50,008 bases of DNA from Deltaproteobacteria bacterium (GTDB taxonomy: Bacteria > Desulfobacterota > Binatia > Binatales > Binataceae), in NCBI GenBank assembly GCA_003135855.1, contig PNBD01000153.1, positions 56,315 to 106,322 of the forward strand, written 5' to 3'. Shown one piece after another: positions 26,124 to 27,593 of the stretch (its first letter is position 1; the number at the start of each line of letters is the position of its first letter). The notes under the pieces are model-generated. The model was given only the letters and a program-made list of their open reading frames with translations. It was not told the DNA's origin and made no database searches. The translations under genes were made by a program, and so were the position numbers.

Positions 26124-26232
26124 GAACCACGGAGACACCAAGGCACCAAGTTGGAGGGGATATTTCTTAAAGGAATTCCCTTTTAAAAAAAGAGTCCTTC
26201 CGACTTTGTGTCTTCGTGCCTTGGTGGTGATA
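26124..26232. repeat. Palindromic intergenic repeat element, copy 1
   Basis: Imperfect inverted repeat: ACCACGGAGACACCAAGGCACCAAGTTGGAGGGG... / ...CCTTCCGACTTTGTGTCTTCGTGCCTTGGTGGT. Confidence 0.8.
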
Positions 26233-26235
26233 GCC

Positions 26236-27243
26236 TCATGGGCGCGGATAGCCCGGTAATCGCACCTGCATCGCGGTCGGATATTCAGGGGCCGGGGCGC
26301 TCGCCTTATCCAACGCGGCGATCTCAGCCGCTTCGAGCCGAAAGCCGATCGTGCCGAGATTCTGCTCGTTTTGCTCTTCCGTGCGAGCGCCGTAAATTAC
26401 CGAGCTGACGCTGCGCTGCTGATTCACCCACGCCAGCGCGACCTGCGACACGGGACGCCCGCGCTCCTTGGCGATCTGCTCGACCGCCTCGAGCGTCGAG
26501 TAATTGCGCTCGTTGGCGAGCCGTCCCCAAATATCCTGCTTCGCAAGCCGGCTATCCTCTGGTGGCCGCTGACCCGATCGATACTTGCCGGTCAGAAATC
26601 CTCCGCCGAGCGGACTCCACGGGATCACGCCGACGCCTTCCGCAACGCACGACGGCAGGATCTCCCGCTCGACGTCGCGCGAAATCAAACTGTATTGCGG
26701 CTGCAGGCAATCGAAGCGCGCGAAATCGTGTTTGTCGCTGACCCACAAGCTCTTCATCAGTTGCCAAGCCGTGAAATTCGACGCACCGATGTACCGAACT
26801 TTGCCTTAACGCACCAAATCGTCGAGCGCGCGCATCGTCTCCTCGATCGGCGTCTCGAAGTCCCACGAATGCACCTGGTACAGATCGATGTAATCCGTCT
26901 TCAAGCGTCGCAAGCTGTTTTCGACTTCCGACATGATATGGCCGCGCGAAAGCCCAATTTGATTCGGCGGGACCGGCTTGCCGATAAAAGCGTTCGCGTT
27001 GAAGCGAACTTTCGTCGCAACCACCAGCGAATTTCGCCGCTCGCCTAATATATTTCCAAGAATCGCTTCGGACGCGCCCGCCGCATACACATTCGCCGTA
27101 TCGAGAAAATTGCCGCCAACGTCGATGAAACGATCGAGTATTTTTCGAGCAGTGGCTTCATCAGTCTCACGTCCAAACGTCATGCATCCGAGGCACAGTT
27201 CTGAAACTTTCAATCCAGTGGCACCAATTCGACGATATTCCAT
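26236..27243 (-). pseudogene. Aldo/keto reductase interrupted by one in-frame TAA
   Basis: ORFs 26806..27243 ([24 protein letters not shown]...ALDDLVR*) and 26236..26757 are in the same frame; reading past TAA (26806-26808) gives ...DDLVR*GKVRYIGASNFTAWQLMKSLW..., contiguous AKR sequence. Confidence 0.85.
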
Positions 27244-27298
27244 GGCTTTTCTTGAGTTCCTCCGCGATCGAGTTTAGTCCGATCGCGCAGCCGGACAA

Positions 27299-27495
27299 TC
27301 AAAATATTTCGATTGAATAATCTTTTGATCGCATCGTCTCAATAATTGGGTGCAAACGGCTCTGGCACCCTCTGGTTGGATGCTCCTCCCACCAACCAGA
27401 CCTGCCGTCCGAAGCGTACTCGGACGGTTGCTACGAACAGGCGGGCAATGAAGAGTTCCCCCCCTCTCCATGTGCCCGCCATTTTTTTTCCTTTT
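27299..27495 (+). ncRNA. Candidate structured small RNA with 4-5 consecutive hairpins
   Basis: Exact complementary arms: 27348-27353/27365-27370; 27371-27379/27392-27400; 27405-27412/27420-27427; 27440-27447/27473-27480; last hairpin followed by ATTTTTTTTCC. AT-rich inverted repeat 27299-27308/27319-27328 just upstream. Confidence 0.55.
27440..27491 (+). terminator. Intrinsic terminator at the end of the candidate sRNA
   Basis: GGCGGGCA...TGCCCGCC stem followed by ATTTTTTTTCC on + strand. Confidence 0.7.
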
Positions 27496-27499
27496 TCAA

Positions 27500-27593
27500 T
27501 CTCACCACCAAGACACGAAGGCACAACGGAAGAGTATTTCTGTTAAGAAAATACCCTTCCGACTTGGTGCCCTGGTGCCCTTAGTGGCTAGTC
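27500..27593. repeat. Palindromic intergenic repeat element, copy 2
   Basis: CACCACCAAGACACGAAGGCACAACGGAAGAGTATTTCTGTTAAGAAAATACCCTTCCGACTTGGTGCCCTGGTGCCCTTAGTGGC; self-complementary and similar to copy 1. Confidence 0.8.

Follow-up and report, generated by a model that had tools for sequence, protein, structure and literature searches.

A candidate small RNA family of the Binataceae with an ECF-type promoter and a conserved anti-Shine-Dalgarno loop

Genes and features of the locus

The window (the whole 50,008-nt stretch of DNA that was analyzed) carries at 27299-27495 a run of hairpins that an earlier note had proposed as a new plus-strand small RNA. All four consecutive perfect-arm stems of that proposal, as well as both C-rich loops and the T-tract, were found by direct sequence location at the positions given there, arm by arm. 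Hairpin 1 is formed by GGGTGC at 27348 and its partner GCACCC at 27365, hairpin 2 by TCTGGTTGG (27371) and CCAACCAGA (27392) around the loop ATGCTCCTCCCA that begins at 27380, hairpin 3 by CCGTCCGA (27405) and TCGGACGG (27420), and hairpin 4 by GGCGGGCA (27440) and TGCCCGCC (27473), after which ATTTTTTTTCC follows at 27481. A conserved ECF-type promoter, a feature absent from the earlier reading, stands upstream. We place the 5' end of the RNA from this promoter and its 3' end from the T-tract, which gives the following features.

27314..27338, plus strand: ECF-type promoter (-35 and -10 elements), TGAATAAT-N13-CGTC; [TC]GAAT-N16/17-CGTC lies upstream in 35/35 orthologues
27345..27490, plus strand: predicted small RNA of about 145 nt; fold z of -5.8, covariance-model matches in 35/42 family genomes
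27348..27370, plus strand: hairpin 1 (GGGTGC / GCACCC); 6/6 pairs changed on both sides among 34 orthologues
27371..27400, plus strand: hairpin 2 (TCTGGTTGG / CCAACCAGA), which carries the anti-Shine-Dalgarno loop; 9/9 pairs changed on both sides
27383..27390, plus strand: core of the anti-Shine-Dalgarno loop, CTCCTCCC, the proposed seed; YTCCTCC in 34/34 orthologues, CTCCTCCC itself in 27/34
27405..27427, plus strand: hairpin 3 (CCGTCCGA / TCGGACGG); 8/8 pairs changed on both sides
27430..27439, plus strand: single-stranded linker GCTACGAACA; kept in alignments of its own genus and the nearest genera
27440..27490, plus strand: hairpin 4 and T-tract, intrinsic terminator; GGCGGGC stem near-invariant, T-tract also in orthologues
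27458..27464, plus strand: C-run in the terminator loop, a possible second seed; at least five consecutive C in 34/34 orthologues

The AT-rich inverted repeat that the earlier note had placed just 5' of the hairpins is present (27299-27308 / 27319-27328), with one mismatch and without conservation among relatives. The repeat and the -35 region of the conserved promoter overlap, and the repeat is no conserved part of the small RNA. On the other side of the repeat, an aldo/keto reductase gene on the minus strand (26806-27243 and 26236-26757) is interrupted by an in-frame stop in this genome; in relatives, a gene related to aldo/keto reductase adjoins the small RNA. Directly 3' of the T-tract, at 27500-27590, lies a dispersed intergenic palindromic repeat beginning CACCAAGACACGAAGGCAC, which also occurs at about 26180-26230 and parts of which turn up at about a dozen sites in this genome. 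A repeat or mobile element was rejected as an identity for the hairpins themselves, since these are single-copy in this genome and the dispersed repeat begins only past the T-tract.

In most of the genera examined, a beta-propeller lipoprotein gene follows on the same strand, 40-300 nt past the small RNA, with the hairpins standing between it and the promoter. This arrangement would also suit control of the beta-propeller gene in cis, by a 5' leader or attenuator in which hairpins 1-3 sense a signal and hairpin 4 terminates transcription in a regulated way. As to INDEPENDENCE from neighbours, the beta-propeller gene is usually next, yet in most loci a separate, sigma-70-like CTTGACA box lies beyond the terminator, 8-210 nt past the RNA, as that next gene's own. 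In genus g5, moreover, a TetR regulator follows the small RNA with no beta-propeller gene between them, and no conserved helix that could compete as an antiterminator was noticed, though not by a systematic search. We consider a leader unlikely on these grounds.

Fold, covariation and strand

The whole stretch 27299-27495 has a predicted folding energy of -71.4 kcal/mol. Its dinucleotide-shuffled versions gave -47.8 +/- 4.3 (z of -5.5), and 0/200 of them folded as stably; the RNA trimmed to its ends gave a z of -5.8. When 34 orthologues were aligned on the structure, 95.9% of cells were base paired and 28 of the 35 pairs showed changes on both sides, with 149 compensatory cells compared with 44.6 in column shuffles and 6-16 in controls with slid partners. 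These counts come from an alignment fitted to the structure and somewhat favorable to it, but the margin is nonetheless very large. Compensatory covariation, on which the earlier note had made its proposal depend, is thus evident at most pairs.

The four hairpins do not evolve alike. The stems of hairpins 1-3 covary, whereas the outer stem of the terminator is nearly unchanged, 5/8 of its pairs being invariant and 100% of its cells paired. This GC-rich hairpin is followed by 8 T (27482-27489), in agreement with the intrinsic terminator claimed earlier. A simple terminator scan listed none in the region of the small RNA; that scan covers uninterrupted stems with loops of 3-8 nt, and the interrupted hairpin 4 falls outside its scope.

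G-U wobbles (87) far outnumber A-C mismatches (16) across the orthologues, which is why we take the plus strand as the RNA strand, and the promoter and T-tract on the plus strand bear out the same claim of the earlier note. An RNA from the minus strand exposing GGA loops in the manner of CsrB was rejected by this wobble asymmetry and by the sides on which the promoter and T-tract lie.

Could the conservation be that of a small peptide? Mechanically called reading frames of 61-66 aa do cross the element (minus-strand ORFs at 27339-27524 and 27274-27471 and a plus-strand ORF at 27346-27546), the first of which the earlier note had singled out as a coding frame that might explain the conservation. 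Across orthologues, however, all six frames are broken by stops, lengths vary (108-151 nt) by steps that are not multiples of three, and substitutions track base pairs rather than codons. The note's view that no convincing coding sequence accounts for the element therefore holds, with reading frames kept on neither strand, and we regard an encoded peptide as very improbable.

The proposal withstood those refuting conditions of the earlier note that sequence data can address, and the existence, conservation, strand, structure, terminator and promoter of a small RNA are supported at the level of sequence. Its expression, its targets and its action in trans are what we infer from them.

Distribution in the Binataceae

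The small RNA is single-copy in its own genome by nucleotide search, and the same kind of search across 60 genomes found it in 14 others, every one of the same family. A first covariance model, built from 14 sequences, matched 35/42 family genomes in 14/17 genera, many of the matches (E of about 1e-8 to 1e-17) coming from genera absent from the training set; a second model, for which 34 sequences were used, matched 34/42. The first model had no match elsewhere in the class, and matches in a sample of the phylum were merely marginal. With the second model, one locus in another family of the class (G102:C31:49502-49615) gave a weak match (E of 2.8e-5), which could be a distant relative or chance. 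Within the family, no copy of the small RNA turned up in a few genomes, those of genera g3, g4, g16 and, securely, g17. Pattern matches in the alphaproteobacteria Roseococcus and Nitrospirillum were rejected as the covariance model does not match them, and a phage origin was rejected since viral contigs do not contain the pattern.

Three genomes (G002, G005 and G006; loci L058-L062) hold divergent second copies that share mainly hairpins 3-4 and the C-rich terminator loop and that are without the ECF-type promoter; these are possibly paralogous small RNAs. A fourth genome (G001) has a weaker second copy.

The promoter and its link to an ECF sigma factor

In most orthologues the promoter lies 4-10 nt before the modelled start of the RNA. 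We assign it to the ECF type because published ECF26 promoters, with GGAATA or GGAAT at -35 and CGTC at -10 (PMC6180224, PMC6527743), resemble it; we claim no ECF26 membership for the Binataceae sigma factor. In the 42 family genomes, TGAATAWW-N13/14-CGTC clearly exceeds its reversed control, and it recurs 5' of several gene types that vary by genus, among them genes for a type III polyketide synthase, a DUF1329 protein, an HTH_17 protein and small proteins with signal-like N-termini. It also precedes a family of unknown function whose proteins start MQEKETLDERLPGL, where GAATA-N-CGTC was present in 7/7 genomes examined, this genome included. The gene of that family sits after an IscX-type gene (Fe-S_assembly). 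The family itself (L127-L133; G000:C42:42944-43336 in this genome) has several paralogues per genome and no Pfam or NCBIfam match. A second match to the promoter motif in this genome lies inside an ORF and was set aside as probably due to chance.

A single orthologue of one ECF sigma factor is present in 41/42 family genomes, in the order apparent DNA polymerase I gene, ECF sigma gene, zf-HC2 anti-sigma gene, and TGAATTT-N-CGTC stands at the start of the sigma gene in 28/28 genomes checked. The small RNA and this sigma gene thus have the -35/-10 cores TGAAT-N16/17-CGTC in common, from which we infer that the small RNA is most likely the noncoding arm of this sigma factor's stress regulon. The -35 extensions differ, however, with AWT at the small RNA and TTT at the sigma gene, so another ECF factor of the genome could be the activator. 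The sigma gene (L159-L188) seems to begin only a few bases past its own -10 element, so that its mRNA may have almost no leader and a TTG as start codon.

Loops as seeds and a proposed mode of action

The anti-Shine-Dalgarno-like loop described earlier proved to be the segment of hairpin 2 that is both conserved and predicted to stay unpaired. It reads YUCCUCC in every one of the 34 orthologues, and its mean unpaired probability among the 27 scored is 0.95. The C-run of the terminator loop has a mean unpaired probability of 0.84, and the RNA as a whole 0.38. A search of the genus for perfect partners of the 11-mer GGGAGGAGCAT returned, in this genome, only the small RNA's own reverse complement, and any pairing with targets must therefore use shorter seeds. 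By itself, the anti-Shine-Dalgarno seed confers little specificity.

Several sequence-conserved C-rich loops on stable stems, together with a terminator stem whose sequence is kept beyond what termination needs, might also be expected of an RNA that binds a protein rather than mRNAs, for instance one sequestering an RNA-binding regulator through repeated C-rich loops. Sponges of the CsrA type expose GGA, though, and here GGA would appear in loops only on the minus strand; two C-rich loops are also few for a titrating sponge. Binding to a protein in place of mRNAs therefore strikes us as improbable.

The reading that we favor, and think probable, is an ECF-sigma-dependent, terminator-ended, trans-acting small RNA that masks ribosome-binding sites. 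If this is how the element works, it would be an independent plus-strand gene whose transcription begins a few bases past the promoter TGAATAWT-N13/14-CGTC and is ended by the intrinsic terminator of hairpin 4, yielding a transcript of about 145 nt. The ECF sigma gene forms an operon with that of a membrane anti-sigma factor (zf-HC2), and release of the sigma factor would let the small RNA accumulate. Its exposed loop, CUCCUCCC, could then pair with the purine-rich ribosome-binding sites of selected mRNAs, probably assisted by the C-run of the terminator loop, and this pairing would block their translation. A more far-reaching possibility, which we offer tentatively and would not call likely, is that the two constrained seeds (the anti-Shine-Dalgarno loop and the terminator poly-C loop) make up the noncoding arm of a family-wide Binataceae stress regulon, in which the terminator would serve for targeting too and, in some genomes, would also be carried on separate paralogous RNAs.

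Comparison with known systems

At the curated cut-off of Rfam 15, the one feature of the window to qualify was a tRNA outside the element; a permissive Rfam search of the element gave chance-level matches only, and a search of five orthologous loci was negative. No Rfam family covers the element, as its earlier description as new had implied, and none of the papers covered by a literature search mentions both Binatota and small RNAs. The sequence data thus support a previously uncatalogued small RNA family of the Binataceae, uncultured soil bacteria.

The alpha-r14 / NfeR1 small RNAs of the Rhizobiales act in trans and have the anti-Shine-Dalgarno motif CCUCCUCCC in their hairpin loops on stems that vary; NfeR1 silences its mRNAs by obstructing their translation initiation region (PMC3927594, PMC10746234). 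A conserved anti-Shine-Dalgarno loop on varying stems is what the Binataceae RNA has in common with it, and a similar mode of action is what we propose here. The two differ in that CCUCCUCCC occurs in all three hairpins of alpha-r14 / NfeR1, the pattern that defines that family and that the Binataceae RNA does not show, as it has CUCCUCCC in hairpin 2 only, of four, and a C-run in its terminator loop. Control also differs, with LsrB/NtrC on the one side and an ECF-type promoter, in a different phylum and with no Rfam match, on the other.

MicA, RybB and VrrA, the last of 140 nt, are sigma-E-dependent small RNAs of the envelope stress response (PMC1804206, PMC2628432). They offer a parallel in being small RNAs driven by an ECF sigma factor, with repression of mRNAs expected, which for the Binataceae RNA is a prediction. 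Their distribution is enterobacterial and in Vibrio, their pairing regions are other ones, and the window has no Rfam match to them.

The 6C RNA of Actinobacteria has loops with at least six consecutive C, and C-run loops are found in both RNAs. The Binataceae RNA differs from 6C in phylum, in its four hairpins and anti-Shine-Dalgarno loop, and in giving no Rfam match even in a permissive search.

The Binataceae RNA lies outside the alpha-r14/NfeR1, MicA, RybB and VrrA families. With it, the lineage would gain a well-supported regulatory RNA family, tied to a specific sigma/anti-sigma operon by a readable promoter code that defines a regulon for testing. The finding also suggests that small RNAs driven by ECF sigma factors and masking ribosome-binding sites arose beyond the Proteobacteria as well.
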